Assembly (NCBI RefSeq): GCF_000264945.2
Contig: NZ_CP013070.1
Location: 3,590,323 to 3,654,322 of the forward strand
Direction: 5' to 3'
Source of the DNA: Sphingobium indicum B90A
GTDB lineage: Bacteria; Pseudomonadota; Alphaproteobacteria; Sphingomonadales; Sphingomonadaceae
Length of the DNA stretch: 64,000 nt
In this document: in pieces, positions 28,259-60,393 of the stretch
How the letters are laid out: every line of letters starts with the position of its first letter
How positions within the stretch are numbered: position 1 is the stretch's first letter
Position numbers and translations under genes: made by a program
Notes under the pieces: generated by a model
Seen by the model: only the letters and a program-made list of their open reading frames with translations
Told to the model about the DNA's origin: nothing
The model's database searches: none

Positions 28259-30358
28259 CTATTGCTCAGGGGAAGCGGATTCCGGCGGCTTTGATGTTGC
28301 GGCACCTGATCCGCGCTTTTTCAGCGCGACCGCCTGAGCGGACACATAGCCCCGGATTTCCTCTGCCTCCGCCTCGTTGAGATGCTGCTTCCAGCCCACC
28401 ATGCCGTTGCCCTCCAGCGCGCCGTCGATCACCACCGCGCGCCAGGACTCCCGGTCGGCGAGGAAAGCTGAGCGGCGGAGGTCGGGAATGACGTTCGAGG
28501 ATACCGCTGCCGGGCCGTGACAGCGCGAACAGTACCTGCCGTAATTCGTTCCGCCTTGGGCGATCTGCTTGCCGGTGAACGGGTCCGCGGTTGGATTGGG
28601 CGGCGGCGGCGCGCCGGGTTCGGCGGGAAGCTTGGCCGTGCCGTTCAGGCGGAAGGCGACCATCCGGCCCGGCTGGCGTTCGCGTTCGTCGGCGTCGCCG
28701 GCCGCGGGGCTGGCGCCGTTACCAGTAGCTATCGCGACATATTGCACGCCGCGGACGCTGTAGGCGATGGGCGCCGCCTGGACGCCGTTGGGCATCTTGT
28801 AGTTCCAGACCTCCCGTCCATTATCGGCGCGGAAAGCGGTGAAGCGGCCGGTCACGGCGCCCTGGCCCTGGAACACCAATCCGCCCGCCGTCGCCAGCAC
28901 GCCCGCGCGGTCCGCCGGCACGCGCCACGCCTCGGTCTGGGTCACCGGATTCCAGGCGAGCAGATGGGTCGGGCCGCCCTTGAGCTTGCTCAGCAGGCCG
29001 GTATTGAAGGGGCCGCGCGTATAGGTCTTGAAATTGGGATCGTCACGTACCTCCGCGCTGTTTTCAAAAGCGTTGAGATAGACGAGGCCGGTCTTTGGGC
29101 TGTAGGCCATGGCATGCCAGTTATGCGCGCCGGAGCTGTTGGGCCGCAGGTGGAACGGTCCATCGGTATAGCGGGAATTGGGTGTCTCGATCGGCCGGCC
29201 GGTCACCGTGTCGATGCCCGATGCCCAAGTCACGGGGACATAGGGCTTGGCCGAGATCACCTTCCCGTTGGTGCGGTCCAGCACATAGAAAAAGCCGTTC
29301 TTCGGCGCGTGCATCAGCACCTTGCGGATCTTGCCGTCGATGGTCAGGTTTCCCAGGATCATCGGCTGGGAGGAATTATAGTCCCAGGCCTCCTGCGGAT
29401 TCTCCTGATAGTGCCAGATATATTTGCCCGTGTCGGGGTCGAGCGCGATCACCGAGCAGAGGAACAGATTGTCGCCCTTGCCCGCGGTGCGGTATTTCGG
29501 ATTCCAGGGCGAGCCGTTGCCGGTGCCGATGTAGAGCTGGTTCAGTTCCGGATCGTACGAGATCGCGTGCCAGGCCGTGCCGCCGCCGCCATATTTGGCA
29601 TAGTCGCCGGACCAGGTCGGGCGCACCAGCTTCTCCATGATCTCGTCCGAAGCGGCGTGGTCCGGCCCCTTCGCGGGATCGCCGGGCACGGTGTAGAAGC
29701 GCCACACCAACTTGCCCGTGGCCGCGTCATAGGCCGAGACATAGCCCCGCACCCCGAAATCGGCGCCGGCGTTGCCGATGATGACCTTGTCATGGATCAC
29801 GCGCGGCGCGCCGGTGATCGTGAGCGCGCTCTTCGGATCGACCGTCTGGGTGCTCCAAAGCTGGGTGCCGGTGCGCGCGCTGATCGCGATCAGCCGCCCG
29901 TCGAGCGTGCCGACATAAACCTTGCCCTTGTAGACTGCGACGCCGCGATTGACCGTGTCGCAGCAGACCTTCACCCCCGTGTCGCCCGGCACCATCGGAT
30001 CGAAGAACCATATCTGTCGCCCGGTGGCCGCGTCGAGCGCGTAGACCTTGCTCCACGACGTGGAGACATACATCACCCCGTCGACCACCAGCGGCTCGGA
30101 TTGCTGCCCCCGGACCGTGTCGAAGTCGAAGCTCCAGGCGGGCTTCAGGTCCTTGACCGTGTTGACGTTGATCTGATCGAGCTTCGAATAATGGTCGCCG
30201 TTGAAGGTGCCGCCATTGACCAGCCAATTCGCCGGTTCGGAGGCGGCGGCGATCATCCGGGCATCGTCGACGGCGCCGGGGTGGACACCTGCCATCGTCG
30301 CTGCAAGCAGGGGCGCACCGGCGCCGGTTAAGATAATGATCCGGATTATGCGATTCAT
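28259..30358 (-). CDS. PQQ-dependent quinohemoprotein alcohol dehydrogenase 1
   Basis: A 699-residue periplasmic dehydrogenase with a signal peptide (IIRIIILTGAGAPLLAATMA). An eight-bladed PQQ propeller is followed by a C-terminal cytochrome c domain. The vicinal disulfide is VKVCCDTVNRG near residue 132, the calcium/PQQ region is GGGGTAWHAIS, the catalytic aspartate context is EAWDYNSSQPMIL, and the heme site is YCSRCHGP near 620. Type II enzymes of this kind oxidise alcohols and pass electrons to the respiratory chain. A good sigma-70 promoter lies upstream. The C-terminal tail is Ser/Pro-rich. Confidence 0.9.
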   Translation of the reverse strand: MNRIIRIIILTGAGAPLLAATMAGVHPGAVDDARMIAAASEPANWLVNGGTFNGDHYSKLDQINVNTVKDLKPAWSFDFDTVRGQQSEPLVVDGVMYVSTSWSKVYALDAATGRQIWFFDPMVPGDTGVKVCCDTVNRGVAVYKGKVYVGTLDGRLIAISARTGTQLWSTQTVDPKSALTITGAPRVIHDKVIIGNAGADFGVRGYVSAYDAATGKLVWRFYTVPGDPAKGPDHAASDEIMEKLVRPTWSGDYAKYGGGGTAWHAISYDPELNQLYIGTGNGSPWNPKYRTAGKGDNLFLCSVIALDPDTGKYIWHYQENPQEAWDYNSSQPMILGNLTIDGKIRKVLMHAPKNGFFYVLDRTNGKVISAKPYVPVTWASGIDTVTGRPIETPNSRYTDGPFHLRPNSSGAHNWHAMAYSPKTGLVYLNAFENSAEVRDDPNFKTYTRGPFNTGLLSKLKGGPTHLLAWNPVTQTEAWRVPADRAGVLATAGGLVFQGQGAVTGRFTAFRADNGREVWNYKMPNGVQAAPIAYSVRGVQYVAIATGNGASPAAGDADERERQPGRMVAFRLNGTAKLPAEPGAPPPPNPTADPFTGKQIAQGGTNYGRYCSRCHGPAAVSSNVIPDLRRSAFLADRESWRAVVIDGALEGNGMVGWKQHLNEAEAEEIRGYVSAQAVALKKRGSGAATSKPPESASPEQ

Positions 30359-30387
30359 TATATTCCCCGTTTTCCTGCTTTTCGCGC

Positions 30388-30415
30388 AGGATAACCAAGG
30401 GGATTAGCGTGTCAA
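30388..30415 (-). promoter_or_regulatory. Sigma-70-like promoter of quinohemoprotein gene 1
   Basis: On the minus strand TTGACA (30410-30415) and TATCCT (30388-30393) are 16 bases apart and about 30 bases ahead of the start codon. Just upstream of the -35 box lies an A/T-rich repeat, CTTATAGGTTTATAG (30418-30432), which may be an operator. Similar A/T-rich words precede other units of the island. Confidence 0.6.
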
Positions 30416-30446
30416 TCTATAAACCTATAAGCCATAATATTGATTG

Positions 30447-30968
30447 TTACAGCGGGGCGGGCGTGAAGAGGAAGCTGCGGTAGCCGCGGGTGAAGCGCTT
30501 GATCCGCGCCGTCCATGGCGTTCGGGCGGCGGTGCGCCAAGCATCGCCCGCCGGAATGTCGGACCCGGCGAGCGTGAATAGCGCCAGGTAGCGCGGCGAC
30601 CCTTCGGATCGATAGCGCGCGATCCCGCTCACGCCCGGCAGCGCGCCCAGGCGCGGCAGATGCTCGGTGTCGTACCAGGCGTTGAATTCCTCCTCCGCCT
30701 CGTCCGCGACTTCGAGGAAGTTGCAGAGGAGCGCCGTGGCGTTCGCAATCTCGACAAGGCCGACACAGGCGACGCGCGCGCCACTCCACCGTATCTCGCC
30801 CTCGACGGGGGGCGCGGCGATCGGATGGGGGGAGAGCAGCATGCGCGTGACTGGCGCATCCTCGCCTCCCCCGCTGCCGACCCGCGCCCGGCCTGTCAAC
30901 GCCGTCTCGCCAGCCACGGGCCGGGGCGTCTCCGCCGCGATCAGCAGATGAATCGCCTCGGCGCTCAA
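30447..30968 (-). CDS. EthD-like dimeric alpha/beta-barrel protein A
   Basis: A 173-residue cytoplasmic protein. The C-terminal half carries EEEFNAWYDTEHLPRL followed by a strand-rich ARYRSEGSPRYLALFTL, typical of EthD/ferredoxin-like dimeric barrels. The same EFNxWYDTEHxPR core is found in the paralogue at 52699-53241. The start is a TTG overlapping the stop of the CoA-ligase-like gene (TTGA), supported because the paralogue has a similar N-terminal extension. EthD itself was found in an ether-degrading P450 cluster, and its role there is unclear. It is the third gene of the minus-strand operon starting at 33740. Confidence 0.75.
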   Translation of the reverse strand: MSAEAIHLLIAAETPRPVAGETALTGRARVGSGGGEDAPVTRMLLSPHPIAAPPVEGEIRWSGARVACVGLVEIANATALLCNFLEVADEAEEEFNAWYDTEHLPRLGALPGVSGIARYRSEGSPRYLALFTLAGSDIPAGDAWRTAARTPWTARIKRFTRGYRSFLFTPAPL

Positions 30969-32383
30969 TCCGCCAGCCCCTGTCGCGTCAGGCGCGCGAG
31001 CGTGCGGATCGCGCGCTCCGGCGACCGGCGGAGGGGGATGCCCGCCGCCAGCATCTCCTCGGCCAGCTCGGCGGCGAGCGGGCTGCTCCCGCCCATCAGC
31101 GTATAGACCACCGGCTTGGTCGTGCCCGCGAGCGCGGGAAGGGTGGCGCGCGCGTTGCGGAGGCCGATATCCGGTGGCCCGGGCATGATCGCGATCAGCA
31201 GGCAGCCCACCGCCGGATCGTCGAGCAGCACGCTTGCGGCGCGGCCATAGACCTGCCAGTCGGTGAGGCCCGCGCCCGACAGATCGACCGGATTGCCCTC
31301 CGGGACCGCGTGGCGCGCCGCTTCGCGCAGGCCCTGCGTCGTCTCCGGCGACAGGGAAGCGAGCGGCAACGCCTCGCTCTCGCAGATATCGGCGAGGATG
31401 CCCTTGACGCCGCCATCGGTGAGCAGGACCGCCCCGCCGCGCGGCAGGTCGCCGAAGCGCAGCAGCAACTCGCCCGCGTCCCAGAATTCTTCCAGCGTTT
31501 CGGTGACGACGCAGCCCGCGTCCAGCGCCGCCGCGATGGTCGCGGCGTGGTCGCCGGTCTCGGCGCCGCTGTTGAAGGCGGCCGCCTGACGCGCGCGAGG
31601 CGAGCGGCCCGGATGCAGCAGGACGACATGCTTGTCTTTGCCACGCGCGCGGCGGATCGCGGCGAAGAAGGTCTCCGGCTTCCGGACTTGCTCGGCGAAG
31701 ACGAGGATCACGTCCGTCGCCGCGTCATCGATCATGAAATCGAGGAAGTCCGCGGCGCAGAGCACCGCCTCGTTGCCCGTGCAGATCGAATAGGAGACCG
31801 GCGTGCCCAGCGCCTCCAGCGCGAGCCGCGTCTGTCCGCTGACGCCGCCGGTCTGGGTGATCAGCCCCACCGCGCGCCGTCCTTCCAGCGGCACCGGCTT
31901 ATGGTTGCCGAACGACAGGGAGAGGCCGTCGGCGAAGTTGCTGAGACCCACGGTGCCTGGCCCCAGCACCGCCACGCCGGCGCGGGCGGCGGCGTCGGCG
32001 AGGTCGCGCTGGCGCTGCTTGCCGGCCTCGCCTTCCTCCGCGAAGCCCGAGGCGTAGACGATCGCGGCGCGGATGCCGCGCGCGCCGCATTCGCTGATCG
32101 CCGCCGGCACCATGGCCGCATCCATCGTGAGGAGGGCGATGTCGATCCCCTCCGGCAGGTCGAGGATCGTCGCATGGGCGGGGTGGCCGTCGATGGACTG
32201 GGAGCGGCTGACGAAATGGAGCGCGGCCGGATCGAAGCCGAAGCGCCGCAGATTGGCGAGCACGCGCATTCCCATGATTTCCCAATGGGTCTGGGGCGCG
32301 TCGGCGTCGGGCGGCGCGAGGCCGATGATCGCGATGGAGCGGGGACGCAGGAAGTGCGCGATGCTGTCGGCGTGATCGGACAT
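30965..32383 (-). CDS. CoA-binding, ADP-forming acyl-CoA synthetase-like protein lacking ATP-grasp
   Basis: A 472-residue protein matching the alpha (CoA-binding plus ligase) part of NDP-forming acyl-CoA synthetases: FLRPRSIAIIGLAPPDADAP at the start, VGLITQTGGVSGQTRLALEALG near 172, and LEEFWDAGELLLRFG near 308. Full enzymes of the FerA/Acs type carry an ATP-grasp domain of about 230 residues, which is missing here and not encoded next door. At the position of the phosphorylated His (usual SHTGALAG) this protein reads FNSGAETG, with Asn271 in place of His. It may act as a CoA carrier, transferase or partner subunit. It lies between the MFS transporter and EthD-like genes. Confidence 0.75.
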   Translation of the reverse strand: MSDHADSIAHFLRPRSIAIIGLAPPDADAPQTHWEIMGMRVLANLRRFGFDPAALHFVSRSQSIDGHPAHATILDLPEGIDIALLTMDAAMVPAAISECGARGIRAAIVYASGFAEEGEAGKQRQRDLADAAARAGVAVLGPGTVGLSNFADGLSLSFGNHKPVPLEGRRAVGLITQTGGVSGQTRLALEALGTPVSYSICTGNEAVLCAADFLDFMIDDAATDVILVFAEQVRKPETFFAAIRRARGKDKHVVLLHPGRSPRARQAAAFNSGAETGDHAATIAAALDAGCVVTETLEEFWDAGELLLRFGDLPRGGAVLLTDGGVKGILADICESEALPLASLSPETTQGLREAARHAVPEGNPVDLSGAGLTDWQVYGRAASVLLDDPAVGCLLIAIMPGPPDIGLRNARATLPALAGTTKPVVYTLMGGSSPLAAELAEEMLAAGIPLRRSPERAIRTLARLTRQGLAD

Positions 32384-32384
32384 G

Positions 32385-33740
32385 TCAGCGGGCGCCGCTC
32401 AACTGCCGGGCCACGCGGTCGTCTGCGGTCTCCTGCCCCCGCGCGCGGGCCAGCAGGATCGCGCCCGCGCCGATCAGGGCGGCCACCGCGTAGAGGGGAT
32501 AATAAGCGGACTTGTCGAGGCCAAGGCCGATCAGGACGCCGCCGGCATAAGGGCCTGCGATCGCCCCGAACCGTCCCATGCCCACCGCGAGGCCGACGCC
32601 GGTGCTGCGCGCATGGTCCGGGTAGAGCCGGTTGCTGGTGATCAGCATGCCGGTGAAGGCCGCCTCGATCGAGAACATGCTGAGCATCGCGAACAGGATG
32701 AGCGTCACCGGCGAGCTGACCCAGGCGAACCCCATCAGCCCAACGGCGCAGAGCAGCAGCGCGCCCGCCGTGGCGCGGCGCGCGCCCAGCCGCGCCGCCA
32801 GGGTGCCGATGGCGAGTACGCCAAGGATCGCGGCGAAGCTGGTCGCCATGCCGACCGCCACCGCCGCCTGTCCCTTGAAGCCGGCGAGCACCAGCACCTG
32901 CGGCTTCCAGCTGGTCAGGAAATAGCTGACGAAATAGCGCATGAACGACGCCAGCCAGAGGAACAGCGTTGCCGAGCGCAGCGGTCCGGACAGGATCGCG
33001 CCGATGGCGAGCGGCGAGCGGCTCGGCCGCTCCGGCACCGGCGGCAGCGCGGCGAGCTCCGGCTGCTTCAGGCGTCGCAGGATGGCGTTGGCGCGGGCGA
33101 GGGCGTTGGCCGGCTGGCGGTTCAGCAGGAAATGCAGCGATTCCGGCAGCAGGACGAAGGCAGCGACCGCGACCGCGCCGGTGATCAGGCCGGCGACGAG
33201 ATAGATGCTGCGCCAGCCATGGGCGCCGAGCAGCGCCGCGCCGATCGCCGCGCCGATCATCGCGCCGATTGCGAATCCGATATGGACGCAGGCGAGGAAG
33301 AAATTGCCGCGCGTCTCGTTGGAGAATTCGACGACGATCACGCTCAGCGACGGCACCAGCGCGCCGATCGCCAGCCCCGCCAGGAAGCGGAACAGGAGCA
33401 GCGTCTCCCAGTTGGTGCTGGCCGAGATCGCGATCATCGCCACCGCGCTGGTGGTGGCCGCCGCGAGCACGATCGGGCGCCGGCCGAAGCGGTCTGCCAG
33501 TGGCGCGATCAGGATCGCGCCGAGCATCAGCCCCGCCGCCCCGGCGCTCAGGATCAGGCCCATGGTTTGGGGCGCGAGACGCCAGTCCTTCAGGATCGCG
33601 GGCGCCGCATAGGCGGTGGCCGTGGTGTCGAGGCCATCGCAGATGTTGATCAGCACGCACAGCGCGACCACCGCGATCTGGAAGGCCGAAAGCGGCGCGT
33701 CGGCCAGGAGCGGCCTCACCTTGACGGACGAATTCGCCAT
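32385..33740 (-). CDS. Aromatic-acid:H+ symporter-type MFS transporter 1
   Basis: A 451-residue transporter with 12 predicted membrane helices. The AAHS features are an Asp in helix 1 (INICDGLDTTATAYAAPAI), the loop motif APLADRFGRRPIVL between helices 2 and 3, and a related motif in the middle loop (TLAARLGARRATAGALLL). Such carriers import benzoates, hydroxybenzoates, vanillate and similar acids. ATG 33740 has AAGGA upstream; the open frame to 33788 is less likely. It is first in an operon with the CoA-ligase-like and EthD-like genes, so its cargo is probably processed by them. Confidence 0.85.
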   Translation of the reverse strand: MANSSVKVRPLLADAPLSAFQIAVVALCVLINICDGLDTTATAYAAPAILKDWRLAPQTMGLILSAGAAGLMLGAILIAPLADRFGRRPIVLAAATTSAVAMIAISASTNWETLLLFRFLAGLAIGALVPSLSVIVVEFSNETRGNFFLACVHIGFAIGAMIGAAIGAALLGAHGWRSIYLVAGLITGAVAVAAFVLLPESLHFLLNRQPANALARANAILRRLKQPELAALPPVPERPSRSPLAIGAILSGPLRSATLFLWLASFMRYFVSYFLTSWKPQVLVLAGFKGQAAVAVGMATSFAAILGVLAIGTLAARLGARRATAGALLLCAVGLMGFAWVSSPVTLILFAMLSMFSIEAAFTGMLITSNRLYPDHARSTGVGLAVGMGRFGAIAGPYAGGVLIGLGLDKSAYYPLYAVAALIGAGAILLARARGQETADDRVARQLSGAR

Positions 33741-33922
33741 GACATCCTTCTTCCTGTTTGTTCCCGCTTTCGGTCCGCCCGCAGGCATACGCGATCTGGA
33801 CAGAGGCGCCGAATCTGTTTAAACCAAATGACTAGCTGAATGGAACTATTGATAATGGAATACGCATATGGCCAGTGCGCGACAAGCGGAATGTTCGGCG
33901 CGGGAACCCGGAGGCTTGGGCG

Positions 33923-34537
33923 ATGAAGCTTTTTTGGTCGTCGCGCTCTCCGTTCGCGCGCAAGGTTGTGATGGTGGCGCATGAAACCGGCCTGCATGAT
34001 CGTGTCGCGCTCATCCCGTTGCCGATCCCGAGTCCCGTTCCGTGCGTCGAGCTGCATCGGGCCAATCCGATCGCCAAGCTGCCGACGTTGATCGCCGACG
34101 ATGGCACGGCGATCGCTGATTCCCCGGTGATCTGCGAATATCTCGATCATCTCGGCGGCGGAAGTCTCTTCCCCGTGCCCGGCCCCGCGCGGTGGCGGGC
34201 CTTGGGGCGTCAGGCGCTGGCCGATGGTCTGATGGACCAGTTGCTGCTGTGGCGTGCCGAGTTGCGGCGCGCGGAGGCGTGCCGCTCGGCAACTCTGCTC
34301 GCGACTTTTGCGGGCCGGCTCGATGCCTCGCTTGATCGGCTTGAGGAACAGGCGGCCGGGGGGGCCTGTGGCGCCGGCTTCGATATTGGCGATCTCACCG
34401 TGGGGGTGATGCTCGCCTATCTCGATTTCCGGTTCGCCGAGCGCGGCTGGCGCGACGGCAGGCCGGCCCTCGCAAAATTCCAGGACAGCTTCGCCGCGCG
34501 CCCCTCGGCGATCGCGACCGCTTTCGCGGAGAATTAG
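33923..34537 (+). CDS. Glutathione S-transferase-like protein 1
   Basis: A 204-residue two-domain GST. The thioredoxin-like N-terminal domain begins KLFWSSRSPFARKVVMVAHE, with the SPFARK segment where the catalytic Ser or Cys usually sits. NPIAKLPTLIADDGTAIADS is the cis-Pro and gamma-glutamyl-binding region. The C-terminal half is helical. GSTs in sphingomonad aromatic clusters cleave aryl ethers, isomerise ring-fission products or dehalogenate; which applies here is unknown. GGAGG precedes the ATG. The stop TAG abuts the ATG of the LigI-like gene. Confidence 0.85.
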   Translation: MKLFWSSRSPFARKVVMVAHETGLHDRVALIPLPIPSPVPCVELHRANPIAKLPTLIADDGTAIADSPVICEYLDHLGGGSLFPVPGPARWRALGRQALADGLMDQLLLWRAELRRAEACRSATLLATFAGRLDASLDRLEEQAAGGACGAGFDIGDLTVGVMLAYLDFRFAERGWRDGRPALAKFQDSFAARPSAIATAFAEN

Positions 34538-35428
34538 ATGACGGATCCCCGGTCGCTGTCAATCACGCCGCCGCGCAAAGCCTTGCCGGCGGGCGCGTGC
34601 GACACTCACGCCCATGTTTTCGGTCCGTTCGACCTCTTCCCGCTGCCGGAGGGACGCACCTATACGCCCCCGCTGGCGACCGCCGACATGCACGCAGAGG
34701 CACTCGCCCGGCTGGGCTTCGACCGCGCCGTGATCATTCAGGCCTCGGCCTATGGCTCCGACAATCGCTGCACGCTGGAGGCCGTCGCCCGTGATCCCGT
34801 GGCGCGGCGCGGCGTCGGCGTCGCGGACGAGAGCTTCGACGAAGCGCAGCTTGCGGCGCTCCGGGCGGGCGGCATCCGCGGGCTGCGCTTCACCGAGATC
34901 ATCGGCAAGGATAGCGGCAAGCGCCTCGCCGGCGCCAGCGGCTTCGACACGCTGCGCGCCATCGCCCCCCGGATGCGCGCCGTGGGCCTGCACGCGCAGC
35001 TGTTCGCGCCGTTCGACCTGCTGATCGATTGGATCGACGACCTGCTGGCGTTGGACGTGCCGCTGGTGCTGGATCATCTGGCGCGGGTCGGGCCGTCGGA
35101 CCGGACGGTCGACGATCCCCGGTTCCAGCGCCTGCTCGGGCTGCTGCGCGAGGGGCGGGTCTGGGTGAAGCTGATGGTCTTCCGCAACAGTCGCGCGCCA
35201 GAGACCGGCTATGCGGATCTCCGGCCCTTCCACGAGGCGATGACGCGCGCCAACCCGGGCCGGCTCGTCTGGGGCACCGACTGGCCGCTGCTCAACGTGG
35301 CGCCGCCGCCGGACCCGGGCGCGCTGCTCGATCTGCTCGACGCGTGGATCGAAGGCGACGCGGTGCTGCGGCGGCGCATCCTGGTCGACAATCCGGAGCG
35401 GCTCTACGGCTTTCCGGCCCAGGCCTGA
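34538..35428 (+). CDS. LigI-like 2-pyrone-4,6-dicarboxylate hydrolase family protein
   Basis: A 296-residue amidohydrolase-superfamily protein very like LigI (293 residues), the lactonase of the protocatechuate 4,5-cleavage pathway. Shared segments include CDTHAHVFGPFDLFP near residue 22, GFDRAVIIQASAYGSDN near 62, IRGLRFTEI, LVLDHLARVGP near 176, and the catalytic-Asp motif WGTDWPLLN near 247. LigI hydrolyses the pyrone ring without a bound metal. The exact substrate here is inferred. It starts directly after the GST stop and lies 30 bases before quinohemoprotein gene 2. Confidence 0.8.
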   Translation: MTDPRSLSITPPRKALPAGACDTHAHVFGPFDLFPLPEGRTYTPPLATADMHAEALARLGFDRAVIIQASAYGSDNRCTLEAVARDPVARRGVGVADESFDEAQLAALRAGGIRGLRFTEIIGKDSGKRLAGASGFDTLRAIAPRMRAVGLHAQLFAPFDLLIDWIDDLLALDVPLVLDHLARVGPSDRTVDDPRFQRLLGLLREGRVWVKLMVFRNSRAPETGYADLRPFHEAMTRANPGRLVWGTDWPLLNVAPPPDPGALLDLLDAWIEGDAVLRRRILVDNPERLYGFPAQA

Positions 35429-39249: not shown

Positions 39250-39251
39250 CC

Positions 39252-51732: not shown

Positions 51733-52682
51733 CGTCCTGCTCGGATAGGCGTGCCGTAGATGGCGAAGGGACCGGGATCCTGTCCAGCCAGCGCTGGATC
51801 GGTGCGATAGCGGAGCTTGCCCGCGACCGCCCAGGAGGTCTTCCCCAGCGCCACCGCCGAGGTCGTGCCGGTGCGGCCGCCGGGGAGCGGGGAGAGGGTC
51901 ACCGTGTCGCCCTTGACGGTCATGAGCGTGATCCCGCCCTGGTCGCCCGCCTCGGCGAGCAGGAAGCGGCCGCGGCCGATATGGCGCAGGCCGTCCGGAC
52001 GGTCGAGCTTGCGGGGCGGGATGAGTTCGACCAGCGGACGCGCGCTCCCATCGGCGTTCGTGCCGGTGCGGAACATGCGGCCGGACGTGACGCTGGTCAC
52101 GTAGAGCTGGCCGTCGTCGTCGAAGGCGATGCCGTCGGCGCCCGCCAGGCGCGGATCGGCGATCCAGACGTCGGCCTTGTCCCCGCGCACGCGGATGATC
52201 GAGCCGCGCAGCGTCTCGGCGACATAGGCGGTGCCGTCGGGCGCGACCGCGAAGTCGTTGCACAGCGACCGGGAGGCGCCAGGGGTGGGAATATTCCTGA
52301 CCGGCGCGCCGCTCTTGAGGTCGAACAGGCGGATCGCCGCGGCGCGGTCGCGCGCCTCGGTCGGGTCGCTGCGTCGGCCGTTGGAGCAGACATAGAGCAG
52401 GCCATGCCTGTCGTCCGCGAACACGCCCAGCACCGACACGAGTCCACTGCTGTCCGGCGCGATGAAAATGGTGGCGGCCTTGTCACCGGGCCGGGCGCGC
52501 CAGATCGTCCCATTGCCCGCGCTGCCGACGATCAGCGTGCCGTCGCGCGTCGCGGTGATGCTTTCGGGGAAGACGCGCGGCTGGGGGATTGCGATTTCGG
52601 GCGGAGGCGGGGGTGAGGGCGGGGCCGCCGCCCCAAGCAGCCCCGCCGCCACCGCCAGCCCCATCCATCGCGCCCGTCGCAT
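51729..52682 (-). CDS. Exported SMP-30/gluconolactonase-like beta-propeller protein
   Basis: A 317-residue protein with a signal peptide (RWMGLAVAAGLLGAAAPPSP) and a proline-rich linker. Propeller repeats include PESITATRDGTLIVGSAGNG, LCNDFAVAPDGTAYVAET and GADGIAFDDDGQLYVTSV, typical of the SMP-30/LRE six-bladed fold, whose members are calcium-dependent lactonases. The ND and D/G motifs at metal positions are kept. A periplasmic lactonase step is plausible. It lies between the EthD-like gene and the aldehyde dehydrogenase stub; ATG 52682 is chosen over a longer frame to 52733. Confidence 0.75.
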   Translation of the reverse strand: MRRARWMGLAVAAGLLGAAAPPSPPPPPEIAIPQPRVFPESITATRDGTLIVGSAGNGTIWRARPGDKAATIFIAPDSSGLVSVLGVFADDRHGLLYVCSNGRRSDPTEARDRAAAIRLFDLKSGAPVRNIPTPGASRSLCNDFAVAPDGTAYVAETLRGSIIRVRGDKADVWIADPRLAGADGIAFDDDGQLYVTSVTSGRMFRTGTNADGSARPLVELIPPRKLDRPDGLRHIGRGRFLLAEAGDQGGITLMTVKGDTVTLSPLPGGRTGTTSAVALGKTSWAVAGKLRYRTDPALAGQDPGPFAIYGTPIRAGR

Positions 52683-52698
52683 GCCTCGTTCCTCGTCC

Positions 52699-53241
52699 TC
52701 AGGCGGGGGTGAAACCCATCCGCAGATTGTCATGGCGGAAAGTCAATATCCGCGCGCTCCATGGTGTCGTCGCGGCCTCGCGCCACTGGGCGCCGGTCAC
52801 CACGTCCAGGTCGCGCAGGTGATAAAAGGCCGCGTAGCTCGGCTGGCTTGTCGAAGCGCGGAAGCGCCGCGCGGCGAGCACGCCGTCCACCGCCCTGAAG
52901 CGCGGCACATGCTCGGTATCGTACCAGTCGTTGAACTCCTCCTCGTGCGCGCCGTCGATGTTCATCCAGTTCACGAGCAGGCCGCCCGCGTTCCTGGGCG
53001 CCGGCTCGTCGCCGGGCAGGATCTGGATGCCCGACCAGCGCCATGCGCCCGCCGCCCCGGCGAGGTCCGTCTTCGCCGCGCTGTCGGCCAGCAGCATGTG
53101 GCGCGGTCGGCCCGGCTCCCCCGCCCGGCTGGACATGGTCCGGCCGACCCATGGCATCGGCGCCAGCGCGTCTTGGGGAAGGGACAGGCCGTCCGCCCCC
53201 GCGTCGGGCGCACCCATCACGAAGACGAGACCGAGGCTCAA
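52699..53241 (-). CDS. EthD-like dimeric alpha/beta-barrel protein B
   Basis: A 180-residue cytoplasmic protein, paralogue of the one at 30447. The shared core is EEEFNDWYDTEHVPRFRAVD, then RRFRASTSQPSYAAFYHLRD, and both end with a TPW-x-ARI segment and a short C-terminal tail. The N-terminal 75 residues look like a degenerate second barrel. The start overlaps the LigJ-like stop by four bases (ATGA), so the two proteins are made together. The function is unknown. Confidence 0.75.
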   Translation of the reverse strand: MSLGLVFVMGAPDAGADGLSLPQDALAPMPWVGRTMSSRAGEPGRPRHMLLADSAAKTDLAGAAGAWRWSGIQILPGDEPAPRNAGGLLVNWMNIDGAHEEEFNDWYDTEHVPRFRAVDGVLAARRFRASTSQPSYAAFYHLRDLDVVTGAQWREAATTPWSARILTFRHDNLRMGFTPA

Positions 53242-54221
53242 GCGAAGGCCTTGCGGTAGATCCTGCGGGCATTGCCCTCGAAGATCTTGGCCTTGTCCTC
53301 GGCGGTGAGGAAGTCGATGCTCTCGATCACCGGCTTCAGATCGTCGAGGTCATGGCCCCAATGGGGATTATGGACCGATCCGGTGCCGGGCCGCTCGGTG
53401 CCGAACAGGCAATTGTCGGCGCCGACCACCTGAAAGAGCAGCTCCAGCCCTTCCCTGGAATAGAGGCAGGTGTCGAAATAGAGCTGGCGCAGTTCCTGGT
53501 CGAACTCGCGGCCGCGCCGCCAAGCGCCGGCACGGAAACGCCCGATCTGATAAGGGATCGCGCCGCCGCCGTGCGAGATGACGATCTTCAGCGTCGGAAA
53601 GTCCTTGAATACGTCCGACTGCAACAGCGACATCACGGCGATGCTGCCCTCGTTGATGAACTTCAGCGTGTAGCTTTCGCGTGGGTGGCAGCAGCCGGCC
53701 GAATGGATCAACGCAGGCACGTCCAGCTCGACGAGCTTCTCATAGAGCGGGTACCAGAAGCGATCGCCCAGGCCCGGCGGGGGCAGGGCGTCGCCCTCGG
53801 TGGGATCGGGATTGAGGATGCAGCCGATGAAGCCAAGCTCCCTGACGCAGCGCTCCAGCTCCTCGACGCAGTTGGCCGGGCTCTCGGCGCGGAACTGCGG
53901 CAGGCCGGCGACGCCCTTCAGCCGATCCGGAAACATCTCGACCTGCTGGTGGATCAGGTTGTTGCAATAGCGCGCCCAGTGCAGCGGCACGCCCGCCGGT
54001 CCCAGCGAATGCATCTGGAGATAGGGGCGCGGCGACAGGAACTGGACGTCCGTGCCTACCTGGTCCATCTTGGCGAGCAGGCCGCGCGCGGTCTTCTCAG
54101 CCACCTCCGCCGCCGGCAGCTTCGCGGCCTGGGGCGGATTGTTGCGGGCGCCCGTGAGCGTCGCCATCTTCGCATAGTCGGCGTCGGTCATCACTATATG
54201 GGCGTGGGCGTCGATGATCAT
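53238..54221 (-). CDS. LigJ-like 4-oxalomesaconate hydratase family protein
   Basis: A 327-residue amidohydrolase-superfamily protein resembling LigJ of Sphingobium SYK-6. The metal site starts MIIDAHAHIVM, with further ligands in VPALIHSAGCCHP near 165 and KIVISHGGGAIPYQIGRF near 210. At the catalytic position it has Glu in NCLFGTERPGTG, as in LigJ, where ACMSD-type decarboxylases have Asp. FDTCLYSREGLELLFQV also matches. LigJ hydrates 4-oxalomesaconate to CHA. AAAGGAAG precedes ATG 54221; the RidA gene upstream overlaps by four bases. Confidence 0.8.
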   Translation of the reverse strand: MIIDAHAHIVMTDADYAKMATLTGARNNPPQAAKLPAAEVAEKTARGLLAKMDQVGTDVQFLSPRPYLQMHSLGPAGVPLHWARYCNNLIHQQVEMFPDRLKGVAGLPQFRAESPANCVEELERCVRELGFIGCILNPDPTEGDALPPPGLGDRFWYPLYEKLVELDVPALIHSAGCCHPRESYTLKFINEGSIAVMSLLQSDVFKDFPTLKIVISHGGGAIPYQIGRFRAGAWRRGREFDQELRQLYFDTCLYSREGLELLFQVVGADNCLFGTERPGTGSVHNPHWGHDLDDLKPVIESIDFLTAEDKAKIFEGNARRIYRKAFA

Positions 54222-54619: not shown

Positions 54620-55615
54620 TCAATGCCACTCGGCGAAGCAAACGCCCGTGCCCGTGCCCGCTTCGGTGCGGTAGCAGGGCAGATATTCCGACCAGGCGAG
54701 GTCGAGATGTTCGCACGCGCCCGCCGTAGCGATCCAGTTGCGGATTTCCGAGCTGCCTGAATTGAGCTTCGCCCGATCCATGCTGGTGAGAGCGGCGACA
54801 TCCTTGGTGCGGATCGCTTCGATCAGGCCGCGGTCCAACTCCTCGTCGACCACGAAATGGCTGAGGCCGCCCGAGGCGATGACGCCGACCTTGATGTCCT
54901 CCGGATAGCTCTCGACCGCCCGGCGTATCGCCTGGCCGAGCGCATAGCAACGGCGCGGCGTCGGCTGGTTGGGCGCATAATAGGTGTTGAGCGCCAGCGG
55001 CACGATCGGCAGCGGGTTGGCCTCGTCCATCAACTGGCGGTGGACGAAGCCGAAGGCATGGCCCTCGCCCTCGCCGTCGCGCAGCCGGTTGGCGGTGGAG
55101 ATGTCGAATTCATCATCGACCAGCCGGGCGATCATGTGGCGCGCAAGCCCGGCGTCGACCGGGAAGTCGGTCTCGCCCTCGTCCACATAATAGCCGCCGC
55201 GCGCGTTCTGCCACCATTCGAGCGGGTTGGGATTGCCCTTGTGGCGCGGGTTGTTGCGGATCGTCTCGCCATAATAGATGAGGATGCTCGGCAGATTGTC
55301 GTTGGTGTAAAGCTCGGCCTGGTCGTCGCCGATGACGATCAGCGTGTCGATGCCGGAGGCGACGATCGCCGCCCTGATCCGCTCGACCCCCCGCTTGGCG
55401 GCGCGCATGCGCTCGTCGAGCAGCGCGGGCGTGATATGGTCGCGCAGCGCCTTGTCCGCGCGTTCCAGCAGCATGGCATAGGTCGCCGGACGCCCTTCCT
55501 TGTCGAGGAACTTGCCCGGAATGTCGCGCTCCTCGAACCGCGCCCAATCGCCGTCGCGCATGTTGAGCATGGGGGTGTGCGAGGAGCCGAGACCGTGAGT
55601 AAGCCGTGCCATCAT
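54620..55615 (-). CDS. LigB-like class III extradiol dioxygenase family protein
   Basis: A 331-residue protein of the LigB superfamily. Matching LigB landmarks are LGSSHTPML (iron ligand His13), TYYAPNQPTPRRCYALGQ, RRAVESYPEDIKVGVIASGG then LSHFVVDEELDRGL, catalytic His186 in EGHAFGF, and iron ligand Glu290 in SGSSEIRNW. The second iron-ligand His of LigB (NDHASAF) is replaced: the text here is GDDQAELY, giving Gln99. No LigA-like small subunit is nearby. It probably opens a dihydroxylated ring or is a diverged relative. It is second in the operon after MFS transporter 2. Confidence 0.75.
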   Translation of the reverse strand: MMARLTHGLGSSHTPMLNMRDGDWARFEERDIPGKFLDKEGRPATYAMLLERADKALRDHITPALLDERMRAAKRGVERIRAAIVASGIDTLIVIGDDQAELYTNDNLPSILIYYGETIRNNPRHKGNPNPLEWWQNARGGYYVDEGETDFPVDAGLARHMIARLVDDEFDISTANRLRDGEGEGHAFGFVHRQLMDEANPLPIVPLALNTYYAPNQPTPRRCYALGQAIRRAVESYPEDIKVGVIASGGLSHFVVDEELDRGLIEAIRTKDVAALTSMDRAKLNSGSSEIRNWIATAGACEHLDLAWSEYLPCYRTEAGTGTGVCFAEWH

Positions 55616-55628: not shown

Positions 55629-56954
55629 TCATGCCGTCGCCGGTGCCGGGCCATGGAAGCGGCTGACGATGAAAATACAGGCGGCGGCGACCGCCGCGAC
55701 CACCGCGAGCGCGGCGTAGAGCGGCAGCAGCCCGCCGCCCGCGCCAAGGACGATGCCGCCCACCAGCGGCCCCGCGACCGCCCCGAAGCGGCCGAAGCCG
55801 ACCACGAAGCCCACGCCGGCCGCGCGCATCGTCGCCGGATAATAGCGCGTCGCGTTGATCATCAGGCCGCTGAACGCGCCTTGCGCGAAGAAGCTGATCA
55901 CCGGCGCGATCGTCAGCATCATATAGGGATCGCCCGTGTTCAACCCGAACAGCAGGAAGGATGTCGCCGCGCCGGCGAAATAGATCGCCGTCAGCCGCGC
56001 CGCGCTGACGATCGCCGAGAAATAGCCCATCGACAGGTTGCCGAGGATCGAGAAGATGCTGGTGAACGTGCCCGCCAGCAGCGCGAGGCGCGTCGGCAGG
56101 CCTGCATCGTCCAGCACCTTCGGCGTCCAGCTCAGATGATAGAAGCCGACGACCGAATAGCCGAGCGATGCCACCCAGAGTAGTACGCTGCCCGCTATCA
56201 TCCCCGGCCCGATCAGATCGGCGATGCGCGTCCGCGCCCGGCCCCCGCCGGTGATCGCCGGCAGCGCGTCGAGCGGCTCGACGCCCAGGCGCCGGCGGAC
56301 GCGGTTGACCCGCTCGAGCGCGCCGCGCGGCTGGGCGGCGAGCAGGAACTGCATCGATTCCGGCAGCCAGAGGAACACGGCGACGAGGATGACGAGATTG
56401 AACAGGCCGCCGACGATGAACAATATCTGCCAGCCATGATCGGCGACGAACCAATAGCCGATCTGGGATGCGAAGGTGACGCCGAGCGCATAGCAGAGGT
56501 GCATCACCGAAAGGAAGAAATTACCCCATTTGCGGTTCGCATATTCGATGACCAGCACGTTGAGATTGGCCATCAGCGAGCCCACGCCGATGCCGGTGAA
56601 GAAGCGCAGCGCCAAGAGTTCATGGACGCTGCCGGCCGCCGCGCTGAGCAGCATGACCACGGCGTTCAGCGCCAGCGCGGAAAGCAGGATCGTGCGCCGC
56701 CCGAACCTGTCCGCCTGCGGCGCCACCACGAACGCGCCCACCGCCATGCCGATCGCGGTTGAGGCGAACAGCACGCCCAGCATCCGCGGGTTCACTGCCC
56801 AGGCGTGGCTGATCACCGGCGCCGCCTGGACCAGGGTGGCGAAATCGAGTCCGTCGGCGATGTTGACGATGCAGCACAGGAGGACGATTGCTATCGAGAA
56901 GGCGTTCATCGGCGCCTCGGCGATCACGCTTTCTCCTTTGGACATCTGCGACAT
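55629..56954 (-). CDS. Aromatic-acid:H+ symporter-type MFS transporter 2
   Basis: A 441-residue 12-helix transporter paralogous to the one at 32385. Helix 1 reads IVNIADGLDFATLVQAAPVI with the AAHS aspartate, the helix 2-3 loop has APQADRFGRRTILL, and the long middle loop has PESMQFLLAAQPRGALERVN. AGGGAG precedes ATG 56954. It is first in a seven-gene minus-strand operon with LigB-, RidA-, LigJ-, EthD-, SMP-30- and YkgJ-type genes, so it likely imports the compound whose ring is cleaved. ATAGACTA (57008-57015, minus strand) lies upstream. Confidence 0.85.
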   Translation of the reverse strand: MSQMSKGESVIAEAPMNAFSIAIVLLCCIVNIADGLDFATLVQAAPVISHAWAVNPRMLGVLFASTAIGMAVGAFVVAPQADRFGRRTILLSALALNAVVMLLSAAAGSVHELLALRFFTGIGVGSLMANLNVLVIEYANRKWGNFFLSVMHLCYALGVTFASQIGYWFVADHGWQILFIVGGLFNLVILVAVFLWLPESMQFLLAAQPRGALERVNRVRRRLGVEPLDALPAITGGGRARTRIADLIGPGMIAGSVLLWVASLGYSVVGFYHLSWTPKVLDDAGLPTRLALLAGTFTSIFSILGNLSMGYFSAIVSAARLTAIYFAGAATSFLLFGLNTGDPYMMLTIAPVISFFAQGAFSGLMINATRYYPATMRAAGVGFVVGFGRFGAVAGPLVGGIVLGAGGGLLPLYAALAVVAAVAAACIFIVSRFHGPAPATA

Positions 56955-57033
56955 ATCCGCTCCCTCTTTTGCCTTTCAGGCTGTTACCATCAAAAAGATC
57001 ATAATGATAGTCTATATGATGATATAAGGTGTA

Positions 57034-58206
57034 TCAGAGGCCCAGCTCGGCGAGAATTTCCTTGTCATGCTCGCCGAGGAGCGGCGGCGCGCGCCGGTAC
57101 GCCACCGGCGCGTTCCGGAATCGCATGGGGCTGGCCAGCATGGCGAGGCGGCCCGACACCGGATGATCGAGATGCACGAGCATCTCGCGATGCCTCACTT
57201 GCGGATCGGCCAGCACGTCCGGCACGGTGTTGATCGGCGCGCAGGGCACGCCCGCCGCCTCCAGCCGGGCGACCCAGCCCTTCATCGTATCCGCCGACAG
57301 GGCGGCGATCAGTGCGGGCATGAGTTGGTCGAGATTGCGGACGCGATCGCCATTGGTGAGGAAGCGTGCGTCCTCGATCAGTTCCGGCCGCCCGATCGCC
57401 TCGCAGAACTTGGCATATTGCCCGTCATTGCCGACGACGATCACGACATGGCCATCCGCGCAGGGGAAGACATCCTGCGGCTGGATGTTGGGGTGGCGGT
57501 TGCCGGCGCGCATCGGCGTCTTGCCTGAGACAAAATAATTCTGCGCCTGGTTGCAAAGCGACCCGACCGCCACGTCGAGCATGCCGATATCGATATATTC
57601 GCCTTGACCCGTCTCATCGCGGCGCGCGATGGCGGCGAGCACGGCGATCGCGGCATACATGCCGGTCATCAGGTCGACCACCGGCACGCCCACCTTCTGC
57701 GGGCCCGCGCCGGGAAAGCCGTCCGCCTCCCCGGTGACGCTCATCAGCCCGCCCATTGCCTGGATCATGAAGTCATAGGCGGCCTGGGAGGCGCGCGGAC
57801 CATCCTGGCCGAAGCCGGTGATCGAGCAATAGACAATGTCGGGCTTCACCGCCTTCAGCCCTTCATAATCCAGCCCGAATTTGGCGAGGCCGCCGGTCTT
57901 GTAATTTTCCAGCACGATGTCGGACCGGGCGGCCAGCGCCTTCACCAGCGCCTGCCCCTCTGGCGTCGCGAGATCCGCGCGGATCGAGCGCTTGCCCCGG
58001 TTGCAGGCAAGGAAGTAGCCGGCGTCGCCCCGACCGCCATCAGCGCCCGGCAGGAAGGGCGGACCCCAGCCGCGCGTGTCGTCGCCGCCTTCCGGCCGCT
58101 CGACCTTGGTCACGTCCGCGCCGAGATCGGCGAGGATCTGGCCGCAAAATGGACCTGCCAGGATACGGCTGAGGTCGAGCACGCGCAGATGCGAAAGGGG
58201 GCTGGC
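57034..58206 (-). CDS. Class III CoA-transferase (CaiB/BaiF family)
   Basis: A 390-residue formyl-CoA-transferase-type enzyme. The N-terminal VLDLSRILAGPFCGQILADLGADVTKVERP and GDDTRGWGPPF are diagnostic, and the catalytic Asp lies in KVGVPVVDLMTGMYAAIAVLAA near residue 170. It moves CoA between carboxylic acids without ATP, which could replace a CoA ligase in this island. GTG 58206 is chosen because AGGAAGG sits six bases upstream; a TTG at 58227 abutting the GST stop is the alternative. It follows GST 2 on the same strand. Confidence 0.88.
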   Translation of the reverse strand, partial: ASPLSHLRVLDLSRILAGPFCGQILADLGADVTKVERPEGGDDTRGWGPPFLPGADGGRGDAGYFLACNRGKRSIRADLATPEGQALVKALAARSDIVLENYKTGGLAKFGLDYEGLKAVKPDIVYCSITGFGQDGPRASQAAYDFMIQAMGGLMSVTGEADGFPGAGPQKVGVPVVDLMTGMYAAIAVLAAIARRDETGQGEYIDIGMLDVAVGSLCNQAQNYFVSGKTPMRAGNRHPNIQPQDVFPCADGHVVIVVGNDGQYAKFCEAIGRPELIEDARFLTNGDRVRNLDQLMPALIAALSADTMKGWVARLEAAGVPCAPINTVPDVLADPQVRHREMLVHLDHPVSGRLAMLASPMRFRNAPVAYRRAPPLLGEHDKEILAELGL

Positions 58207-58227
58207 CACGAAAATCCTTCCTGTCAA

Positions 58228-58914
58228 TCAATCCAGTGCGAGTCGGTTCGCGACCGCGCTGGGCCGCGCCTCGAAGCGGTCATGCCAGGCGGCGAGCGCG
58301 TCGCGGCCCTGGCGCCAGGCGAGAAAGGAGAAGCGCAGGTCGAGATAGGCCAGCGCCGAGCCGGCGGCGATCTGCCCGAGATCGAGCGCGTCCGGCCAGC
58401 GGCTCGCCTCCGCCTCCAGCGCGTCGAGCGCGACCCGCGCCTTGAGCGCATAGGCCGTGTGGAACGCGGCGCTCTGCTGCTCCTGCGGGCGGATGCGTTC
58501 TTGCCGCCAGAGCAACAGCGCGTCGAGCATGCCGTCGACCAGCGCCTGCAGGCGCAGCACCTCGAATCGCGCCCACCCCTCTTTCGGGAGAAGGACGGGC
58601 GCGGGCTGGAGGATCGTCAGATACTCGCAGATGACGGCCGAATCGTGGAGCATCGCGCCATCCTCCAGCTCGAGCATCGGAATGGTGCCGAGCGGATGGC
58701 GTTTCATATAGGCGGTGTCGGGGTTCAGCCGCTCGACAACGGTGCGCTGGCGCCGAATCCGGGCGTCGAGGCCGCATTCAGCGATCACGATCGCCACTTT
58801 GCGGACGAAGGGTGATTTCGGACTCCAGTGCAGCAGCACGGGCCATGGCAGGCCGACCTTCGGCGCGCGCGCCGTTGCGTTTTCCGCGTCCCTCTGAGCC
58901 TCGATTCGGATCAT
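58228..58914 (-). CDS. Glutathione S-transferase-like protein 2
   Basis: A 228-residue GST. The thioredoxin-like domain begins at VLLHWSPKSPFVRKVAIVIAE, with SPFVRK at the catalytic position, and RHPLGTIPMLELEDGAMLHDS provides the cis-Pro and DS motif. The helical domain holds LVDGMLDALLLWRQERIRP. It is related to GST 1 (33923) in both domains. It lies directly upstream of the CoA-transferase gene, and the pair diverges from the GntR regulator. The reaction is unknown. Confidence 0.85.
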   Translation of the reverse strand: MIRIEAQRDAENATARAPKVGLPWPVLLHWSPKSPFVRKVAIVIAECGLDARIRRQRTVVERLNPDTAYMKRHPLGTIPMLELEDGAMLHDSAVICEYLTILQPAPVLLPKEGWARFEVLRLQALVDGMLDALLLWRQERIRPQEQQSAAFHTAYALKARVALDALEAEASRWPDALDLGQIAAGSALAYLDLRFSFLAWRQGRDALAAWHDRFEARPSAVANRLALD

Positions 58915-59023
58915 TAAGCTATTACACTGTCCTTATGTGTGTTTGTCAAAGGCTCACGCACCGCACCGGCAAATGCGGAATGCGCACGGTTGCTCTAATC
59001 CAATTGGCTGCTATAAACACCTA

Positions 59024-59776
59024 ATGCTGCAAGACACAGAGAACACAGGAGGCCCCCTCGGCGCAGATGGAACGGGGATCCCCCGCTATCTGCAGCTCAG
59101 TACATTGTTCCGGCGCATGATCGCGTCCGGGGAGTGGCAGGTCGGTTCCCAAATTCCAACGGTCGAGGAACTGGCCGCCGAATATGGCGTGGCGCGCGCC
59201 ACCGTCCGCCAGGCGCTCGGCATCTTGAACGGCGAAGGCCTCATCGAACGCTATCGCGCCAAGGGCACCTTCGTTACTTATCGGCCCCAGGAGCAACTCT
59301 GGTGCGAGGTCGAGACCGACTGGTCGGGACTTTTGCGCTCGCGTTCCGGCGCGACCATCGAGCTGCTCTCGGAGGAAACCGGCCACCAGCCGCCGAACAT
59401 CATCCAGAGCGATGGCGAGCGCGCGCGCAGCTATCGCCGCTTCCGCCGCCGTCATTGGCGGGAGGGCAAGCCCTTCCTGCTGGCCGACACCTATCTCGAC
59501 GAGGCGCTCTGCAAGCGCATCTCGCATGAAGATCTGGTGACGAAGACGGCGCTTAGCCTGGTGGCGGACATCCGCGGCCTGAAGATCGCCGGCGCCAGCC
59601 AGACGCTGACCATCGGCGCGGCCGACGTGCTGACCGCAAAGGGGCTCCAGGTGCCGCTCAACGTGCCCGTGGCTTATGTGCATCGCACGGTGATCAGCGA
59701 TAGCGGCCGGCTGGTGATGGTGTCCGACGGCACCTATCGGGGCGATGTCGTCCGGCTGGACATCAAGCTCAAATAA
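59024..59776 (+). CDS. GntR-family regulator with a UTRA ligand-binding domain
   Basis: A 250-residue HutC/FarR-type regulator. The N-terminal winged helix reads GEWQVGSQIPTVEELAAEYG then VARATVRQALGILNGEGLIE, with the wing RYRAKGTFV. The UTRA domain follows (about residues 95-245), ending SDGTYRGDVVRLDIKLK. It would sense a small acid or pathway intermediate. ATG 59024 is chosen over an upstream open frame. It is divergent from GST 2, and as the only regulator gene in the island it is the best candidate to control it. Confidence 0.88.
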   Translation: MLQDTENTGGPLGADGTGIPRYLQLSTLFRRMIASGEWQVGSQIPTVEELAAEYGVARATVRQALGILNGEGLIERYRAKGTFVTYRPQEQLWCEVETDWSGLLRSRSGATIELLSEETGHQPPNIIQSDGERARSYRRFRRRHWREGKPFLLADTYLDEALCKRISHEDLVTKTALSLVADIRGLKIAGASQTLTIGAADVLTAKGLQVPLNVPVAYVHRTVISDSGRLVMVSDGTYRGDVVRLDIKLK

Positions 59777-59938
59777 ATAGGGAAATTCCGCGAAAACACG
59801 CGGATATACCAGGGTGGCGCAAATTATTATCGACATAGGCCATAAAGATGGCCTATGAGGTTTTTGCCTCGGCCGACGGACGTTGTTCGGGGCGGCTGAA
59901 CAAACAGCCATAACTGCCTACCCAGAGTGGAGAGCGTA

Positions 59939-60393
59939 GTGCCGCGCATTCCGTTTCCTGAATTCGCGACCATGAATCCCGCCCAGCGCGCGGTGTATGA
60001 AGCGATCGTGAGCGGCCCGCGCGGAGGGCTGGTCGGCCCGCTCCGCGCAGCGCTGCACAATCCCGAACTTGCCGACAAATGGCAGCGGTTCGGCGAATTG
60101 CTGCGCTTCCGCACCTCGCTCACCAAGCGGCATAGCGAGCTCGCCATCCTCGTGACGGCGCGTGTCTGGAACTGTTCGTTCGAGTGGTTCCAGCATGAGC
60201 CGCATGCGCTGGCGGCAGGCCTTCCCGCCGGGATCGTGAACGCGCTCCGCATGGAGCAGAGGCCGGATTTCGACGATTCGGCCGACGAGGCGATCTACGA
60301 ATTCACCAACCAGCTTCAGCGCGACCACTCCGTCACCGACGCGGCGCACCGCGCCGTCCAGGCGGTCTACGGGGTGACGGGCGTAGTCGAACT
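59939..60393 (+). pseudogene. Carboxymuconolactone decarboxylase-family protein, cut by IS6100
   Basis: The first 151 codons are present and the frame is then broken by IS6100. The text PRIPFPEFATMNPAQRAVYE, GPRGGLVGPLRAALHNPELA, and LTKRHSELAILVTARVWNC then SFEWFQHEPHAL matches the AhpD/CMD fold, with the Glu and His of its active site. Full-length members of this type are about 180-190 residues, so about 30 residues are missing. GTG 59939 follows GGAG; an in-frame GTG at 59927 is less likely. The rest of the gene is not found across the IS. Confidence 0.8.

Follow-up and report, generated by a model that had tools for sequence, protein, structure and literature searches.

We analysed a 64,000-nucleotide stretch of the Sphingobium indicum B90A genome (contig NZ_CP013070.1), here called the window, and within it a gene island at positions 28259-60393 that places genes for side-chain shortening through coenzyme A (CoA) esters beside genes for aromatic ring opening. 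The window forms the end of a contig of 3.65 Mb, one of the four that make up the 3.95-Mb genome. Pfam scans of the window proteins recovered, in place, every family named in a first-pass annotation made from the sequence alone, including its pyrroloquinoline quinone (PQQ) dehydrogenases, DUF35 protein, thiolase, enoyl-CoA hydratase (ECH), FadB fusion, CoA-transferase, carriers and receptors.

Gene content and the ring-opening pair

The features, with the matches on which they rest, are as follows (window coordinates and strand).

28259-30358 (-): quinohemoprotein (PQQ and cytochrome c) alcohol dehydrogenase 1; Pfam PQQ and CBB3; best PDB match 1kv9, a type II quinohemoprotein alcohol dehydrogenase, 633 bits; TIGR03075 above cut-off
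30447-30968 (-): small EthD/dabb-like protein (B), kin of 52699-53241; without Pfam match; homologue in Parasphingopyxis marina
30965-32383 (-): ADP-forming acyl-CoA synthetase, alpha half alone; CoA_binding_2 and Succ_CoA_lig, without ATP-grasp
32385-33788 (-): major facilitator superfamily (MFS) carrier 1; Pfam
33875-34537 (+): glutathione S-transferase (GST) 1, YibF-like; Pfam, PDB
34538-35428 (+): LigI-like amidohydrolase/lactonase (Amidohydro_2); PDB LigI, 136 bits
35450-37573 (+): quinohemoprotein alcohol dehydrogenase 2; Pfam, TIGR03075
37669-38094 (+): DUF35/ChsH2-C OB-fold partner; Pfam
38104-39249 (+): SCP-x thiolase-like protein; Cys79 kept, HDxF replaced by QDTD and GHP by GEP
39246-40043 (+): ECH; Pfam ECH_1, 204 bits
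40064-42028 (+): FadB-like ECH/3-hydroxyacyl-CoA dehydrogenase fusion; Pfam ECH_1, 3HCDH_N and 3HCDH
42137-42925 (-): EthD-domain protein 1; Pfam
43634-46438 (+): TonB-dependent receptor 1; Pfam; 39% identical to a receptor of strain SYK-6 (see below)
46462-47283 (+): EthD-domain protein 2; Pfam EthD; homologues in loci L032-L037
47309-47989 (+): RraA-family 4-carboxy-4-hydroxy-2-oxoadipate (CHA) aldolase; NF006731 above cut-off; PDB 3noj
48246-51104 (+): TonB-dependent receptor 2; Pfam
51729-52733 (-): SMP-30/strictosidine-synthase-like propeller; Pfam
52699-53241 (-): small dabb-like protein (S); adjoins the LigY-like gene in L033-L036
53238-54221 (-): LigY-family C-C hydrolase of the amidohydrolase superfamily (Amidohydro_2); PDB, tree, presumed metal ligands
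54620-55615 (-): LigZ/DesZ-family extradiol dioxygenase of its own clade (LigB domain); alignment, tree, motifs
55629-56954 (-): MFS carrier 2; Pfam
57034-58227 (-): class III CoA-transferase; Pfam; NCBIfam succinate-glutarate CoA-transferase, 469 bits, under the cut-off of 750
58228-58914 (-): GST 2; Pfam
58937-59776 (+): GntR/UTRA regulator; Pfam; 67-75% identity in L032-L037
59927-60393 (+): carboxymuconolactone-decarboxylase-like (CMD) gene, ended after 155 codons by IS6100; Pfam, comparison with P. marina
60394-61273 (-): IS6100 copy 1, truncating the island; inverted repeats, transposase, DNA matches

The dioxygenase aligns over its full length with LigZ and DesZ, shares with both the G[ND]DQ and H-x-x-G-F motifs, and is 35% identical to the protein taken as DesZ and 33% to LigZ; the DesB/LigB fold was recognised in it, and its sequence match to LigB/DesB is weak. 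Its label as LigB in the first-pass annotation thus has to be replaced by membership in the LigZ/DesZ family, which is well supported by these comparisons and predicts an extradiol enzyme. For the tree we used 64 hand-chosen loci, all of which were retained, together with the window protein (65 rows). In this quick tree, made with no bootstrap, a branch of 99% SH-aLRT splits 16 rows that include LigZ and DesZ from 49 that include the window protein, and since the latter lies outside the LigZ-containing group, the possibility that it is a LigZ ortholog was rejected.

His13, His186, His253 and Glu290 are present throughout this alignment (65/65 rows), while position 99 is Gln in 61 rows and His in 4 (L044, L048, L059, L127). 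The iron ligands of DesB are given in PMC3962378 as His12, Asn57, His59 and Glu239. The N-D-H stretch is replaced by (D/N)-D-Q in the LigZ/DesZ family, with Gln at the place of DesB His59. All 65 rows have a His within a G/P-H-(A/S) stretch, and this His, as judged from the alignment, may be a stand-in for the lost iron ligand or the equivalent of DesB His124; a literature search on Gln as an iron ligand here found no paper.

The amidohydrolase at 53238-54221, previously labelled LigJ, matches LigY in the PDB with 288 bits as against 252 bits for LigJ, and is 45-46% identical to LigY, 50-51% to a DesZ-adjacent protein and 40% to LigJ. In a tree of 34 rows (of 36 tried) it lies on the LigY side, from which LigJ and the protein of locus L040 are split off by a long 100% branch, and five presumed metal-ligand positions are invariant in every row. 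It does not group with LigJ, the 4-oxalomesaconate hydratase; its predicted membership in the LigY C-C hydrolase family is well supported. With ring-opening enzymes of the LigZ/LigY type, the protocatechuate 4,5-cleavage-like lower pathway first proposed for the island is left unsupported.

The thiolase-like protein and related loci

In the SCP-x-like protein the Cys of the CASGG stretch is kept, with HDxF changed to QDTD and GHP to GEP in 121/121 rows, a narrow sample made up of the window protein and its 120 best database rows (one of them its own), none of them less than 77% identical. Both His are present in the SCP-2, archaeal and BbsB thiolases of solved structure that were compared. We therefore rejected a canonical SCP-2 thiolase, since the Cys is present and both usual histidines are replaced. 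A retro-aldolase of the Ltp2/Sal type, for which PMC12329534 gives the Tyr of a YDxF motif as marker, was likewise rejected, as the site reads QDTDAF, without Tyr. The counterparts in SYK-6, Halomonas, Cupriavidus and Burkholderia read YDDF or YDSF without Cys at the nucleophile position, like the retro-aldolase Sal, and this difference in motif implies that one slot is filled by different thiolase-fold subtypes.

The 5,5'-dehydrodivanillate (DDVA) locus of SYK-6, which we identified through a LigY match of 100%, runs in the order TonB receptor, acyl-CoA synthetase with ATP-grasp, ECH, SCP-x-like protein, DUF35, alpha/beta hydrolase, MFS carrier, LigZ, RraA, RraA and LigY, with LigXa farther on. 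According to the DdvT paper (PMC6874591), ddvT lies upstream of a cluster with ligXa, ligZ, ligY and ddvK, and the locus tags given there and in a 2026 review (PMC12997858) agree with the gene number that we read. Two RraA-family genes lie between ligZ and ligY (L150:13860-15202). No function for the acyl-CoA synthetase, SCP-x/DUF35 or RraA pair of this locus was found in our literature search, from which subscription literature was largely left out. Since the DDVA locus has the same core parts, CoA shortening beside ring cleavage is not new, even though the dioxygenase and hydrolase here each fall in a clade of their own (33-51% identity), and the suggestion that the combination is an undescribed pathway is weakened.

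A scan of species genomes for related loci, of which the best 80 of 511 confirmed were retained, showed that the co-occurrence of these families can indeed be found elsewhere: the island's content recurs in other genera and is therefore more than chance. As the simple caller based on GC by codon position misses or merges genes, the comparison of island proteins was redone by tblastn; in P. marina it put DUF35 on the wrong strand, fused GST 2 to the CoA-transferase and placed a dubious 276-aa gene on the minus strand across the LigXa-like one, and in SYK-6 it called a dubious 1007-aa gene in the interval from LigY to LigXa. The sister cluster of P. marina matches 22 of the 26 island proteins (E 1e-8) within 58 kb, at identities of 85% (SCP-x), 82% (LigY-like), 80% (CoA-transferase), 79% (RraA), 73% (LigZ-like, GntR), 68% (LigI-like, DUF35, ECH), 59-68% (GSTs) and 63% (CMD), with others down to 37%; the island's two TonB receptors both map onto one gene, at 38%. 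There, SCP-x, DUF35 and ECH stand in one run with the ring-cleavage genes, and past CMD, in the same direction, follow the gene of a LigXa-like Rieske oxygenase and then two for RraA proteins. This Rieske enzyme shares 60% identity with the LigXa candidate of SYK-6 and 34% with the Rieske protein near DesZ; one of the RraA proteins (RraA2) is 84% identical between SYK-6 and P. marina, the other 49%. The acyl-CoA synthetase relatives in both loci are longer, at 740-752 aa.

LigXa-like genes (51-60%) were found in 6 of 83 loci (L032-L035, L096, L107), and more distant LigXa_C Rieske genes, about 29-43% identical to LigXa and some over only part of it, at 19 further loci by Pfam on the neighbours, which also hold TctC, esterase and acyl-CoA dehydrogenase genes. 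SAT22, Root720, Rhizorhabdus and Hephaestia (L033-L036) have chiefly the right half of the island in common with it, and Terricaulis (L037) carries a reshuffled set without a LigY-like match. At L102-L111 (Burkholderia, Halomonas, Cupriavidus and others) an SCP-x-like match occurs at the dioxygenase locus in 8 of 10. Lineages of the Burkholderia/Halomonas/Cupriavidus type are sisters of the island in both the dioxygenase and the hydrolase tree, which fits joint inheritance. Among 94 genomes of the genus, the own genome alone has a full-length dioxygenase match above 43% among the matches listed; one other (G187) has split pieces at 63% and 42%.

The right-hand edge and the remaining genes

The first-pass annotation had ended the island at 60393, and this is the exact base before the IS6100 inverted repeat, which starts one base further on; that description marked the IS6100 edge but mentioned neither the cut nor the lack of the LigXa-like oxygenase that relatives have. 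The CMD gene has 155 codons here as compared with 186 in P. marina and ends exactly at IS6100. The own genome has no second CMD piece and no LigXa-like oxygenase (best match 26% over part), and its one RraA outside the island scores 52 bits as against at least 130 for the island types. An IS6100-linked deletion or exchange that took the operon end would be the simplest account. A composite element with target duplication was rejected, since the flanks differ.

Two chromosomal copies of IS6100 (60394-61273 and 62577-63456) enclose the lindane gene linB, which encodes a haloalkane dehalogenase. DNA near-identical to this region (60394-63456) occurs in Sphingobium and Sphingomonas plasmid records, and copy 1 has matches of 99-100% among the matches listed. 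A plasmid-borne origin of the island itself was rejected, as the best of 5 plasmid records covers 3% of window positions 28259-53000; at the right end, the places among the matches listed are IS6100/linB. If the contig is circular, its first 8000 bases, just past the join, hold an EthD-like protein (2213-2896), an SDR-like protein (2927-3697) and an IS6100-like transposase (4962-5753).

The two PQQ alcohol dehydrogenases score 618 and 578 bits against TIGR03075 (cut-off 480). No pqqB was found above the curated cut-off genome-wide, pqqB being the one gene tried and no positive-control genome rising above the cut-off; if this absence is right, PQQ must be imported. The acyl-CoA ligase reported as missing is half present, as the synthetase alpha half at 30965-32383; for its ATP-grasp_5 partner, a genome-wide search gave one match above cut-off (34 bits), in a 411-aa frame that is perhaps SucC. 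The RraA/LigK assignment holds at the level of CHA aldolase (NF006731, 188.7 bits against 179) and does not reach the specific model TIGR02798 ligK_PcmE (169.9 against 304.5 bits). Similarly, the LigI-like protein keeps its PDB match, while its sole NCBIfam match is 4-sulfomuconolactone hydrolase, far under cut-off. GST 1 was rejected as a beta-etherase: its 8 PDB matches are GST and YibF entries, none of them named LigE/F. Four EthD/dabb-type proteins occur within the one island (30447-30968, 42137-42925, 46462-47283, 52699-53241), and that at 46462-47283 has an additional stretch resembling methylmuconolactone isomerase.

A proposed route, its alternatives and known systems

Taken together, the data lead us to read the island, with some confidence, as a diverged relative of the SYK-6 LigXYZ (DDVA) locus, accessory in its genus and truncated here, and to propose the following order of events. 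The receptors and MFS carriers would import a ring-substituted C6-C3 or biaryl compound, on which the PQQ dehydrogenases might oxidise an alcohol, the least secure step. The side chain would be converted to a CoA ester, and hydrated and dehydrogenated by ECH and FadB before the SCP-x/DUF35 pair cleaves it. The ring would be demethylated or hydroxylated by a LigXa-like Rieske enzyme to give a 3-substituted catechol acid, which the LigZ/DesZ-type dioxygenase would open before the LigY-type hydrolase cuts the C-C bond, and RraA aldolase(s) would convert the small fragment to pyruvate. In this strain, the rest of CMD, the LigXa-like oxygenase, RraA3 and RraA2 would have been lost at the IS6100 beside linB, and with the operon end gone the route is probably inoperative from its natural start. 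Guided by kinship with LigXa, we would guess at a substrate derived from lignin that bears a side chain and is biaryl or ring-substituted in some other way. Family membership, clades, co-location and the absence of the genes are shown directly by the data; substrate, reaction order and the loss through IS6100 are inferred from them.

The most economical reading is still the earlier one, in which a single substrate is imported, oxidised, shortened as CoA esters and ring-opened, as CoA and ring genes lie together in P. marina and SYK-6; PQQ oxidation, without a match there, is its less secure part. The link of the SCP-x half to the ring half is likely, and the PQQ and FadB genes are less securely placed than SCP-x/DUF35/ECH.

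Several observations weigh against this interpretation. Within the 58 kb of P. marina we found no counterpart of the PQQ dehydrogenases or of the SMP-30 and CxxCxxCC proteins, and for the FadB fusion only a 25% match, to an ECH; the SYK-6 stretch likewise lacks a match to the PQQ dehydrogenases. Within the flanks of L032-L037, SCP-x/DUF35 occurs in L032 only, so the CoA half is not fixed, and 6 of 7 genomes searched have a thiolase relative at 43% at best, or none. Only 9 of the 26 island proteins match the SYK-6 locus stretch (E 1e-8), several of them onto one gene, and the SYK-6 and Burkholderia/Halomonas/Cupriavidus loci carry another thiolase-fold subtype, with YDxF. Since the ring-opening pair is only 33-51% identical to SYK-6 proteins, DDVA need not be the substrate. 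Finally, we infer the deletion from one strain's junction; the 8-bp sequences on the outer sides of the two IS6100 copies are not the same, in keeping with a deletion but no proof of one.

Some of these points would also be expected if the PQQ/CoA genes for the side chain and the LigZ/LigY genes for ring cleavage belonged to two or more unrelated modules, adjacent by chance: in L033-L037 SCP-x/DUF35 is not beside the ring module, no thiolase in those genomes exceeds 43%, and the PQQ genes are unmatched in both reference stretches. We regard this as unlikely, given the single run in P. marina, matches to both halves on equal-sized contigs in Pacificimonas and a Blastomonas metagenome-assembled genome, and the pairing of an SCP-x-like protein with the dioxygenase in SYK-6 and in 8/10 of L102-L111. 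A DesZ-like route for monomers of the 3-O-methylgallate/syringate type, rather than dimers, would suit a dioxygenase about equally distant from DesZ and LigZ and an amidohydrolase slightly nearer the DesZ-adjacent protein than LigY, but is improbable, as the sister Rieske enzyme is far closer to LigXa than to the Rieske near DesZ and it is not evident what the side-chain genes would do for syringate. A true protocatechuate 4,5-cleavage pathway, with LigB-, LigI-, LigJ- and LigK-like enzymes in series, is very improbable: the RraA passes one CHA-aldolase cut-off, a LigI-like lactonase is present and the amidohydrolase retains 40% identity to LigJ, but the latter falls with LigY while LigJ sits on a separate long branch, the dioxygenase is LigZ/DesZ-type, and LigA and LigC were called missing by the first-pass annotation, with no genome-wide search made.

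Under the favoured relationship to the LigXYZ locus, an unassigned island becomes a testable LigXYZ-type pathway, and attention is drawn to little-noticed genes of the DDVA locus (acyl-CoA synthetase, SCP-x/DUF35, RraA pair). Two active sites depart from the usual residues, with Gln in the dioxygenase and neither histidine in the thiolase-like protein, and a pollutant-degradation element may here have deprived its host of a natural-product pathway. More speculatively, and on present evidence rather doubtfully, the intact form, a ring module like that of P. marina extended upstream by the PQQ and CoA genes of the window, could be an uncharacterised route for biaryl or dimeric lignin compounds with a side chain, using thiolase-fold C-C cleavage without either catalytic histidine and Gln for the usual second His at the dioxygenase iron site, and destroyed by an IS6100 that arrived with linB.

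Compared with known systems, the island shares with BbsAB, Sal/Shy and Ltp2/ChsH2 a thiolase-fold gene beside a DUF35 gene, but its protein combines Cys79 with QDTD and GEP in place of the catalytic-His motifs and lacks the YDxF Tyr; IpfDE is a further such DUF35-partnered system. With protocatechuate 4,5-cleavage (ligABCIJK) it has in common a LigK-type aldolase and a LigI-like lactonase, whereas it has no LigJ-clade protein and its dioxygenase is of another type. In SYK-6 the desZ locus, which was assigned from its position and neighbouring genes, also has a dioxygenase, a LigY-like protein and RraA, yet belongs to another clade, and in the 20 kb read there the SCP-x and PQQ proteins of the island find no match. 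With the DDVA locus (ddvT, ddvK, ligZ, ligY, ligXa) the island shares a receptor, acyl-CoA synthetase, ECH, SCP-x-like protein, DUF35, MFS carrier, LigZ-type dioxygenase, RraA and LigY-type hydrolase; it differs in its divergent ring-opening pair, its thiolase-like subtype and the absence of LigXa and the RraA pair, and adds PQQ dehydrogenases, EthD proteins, GSTs, a class III CoA-transferase and a GntR regulator.

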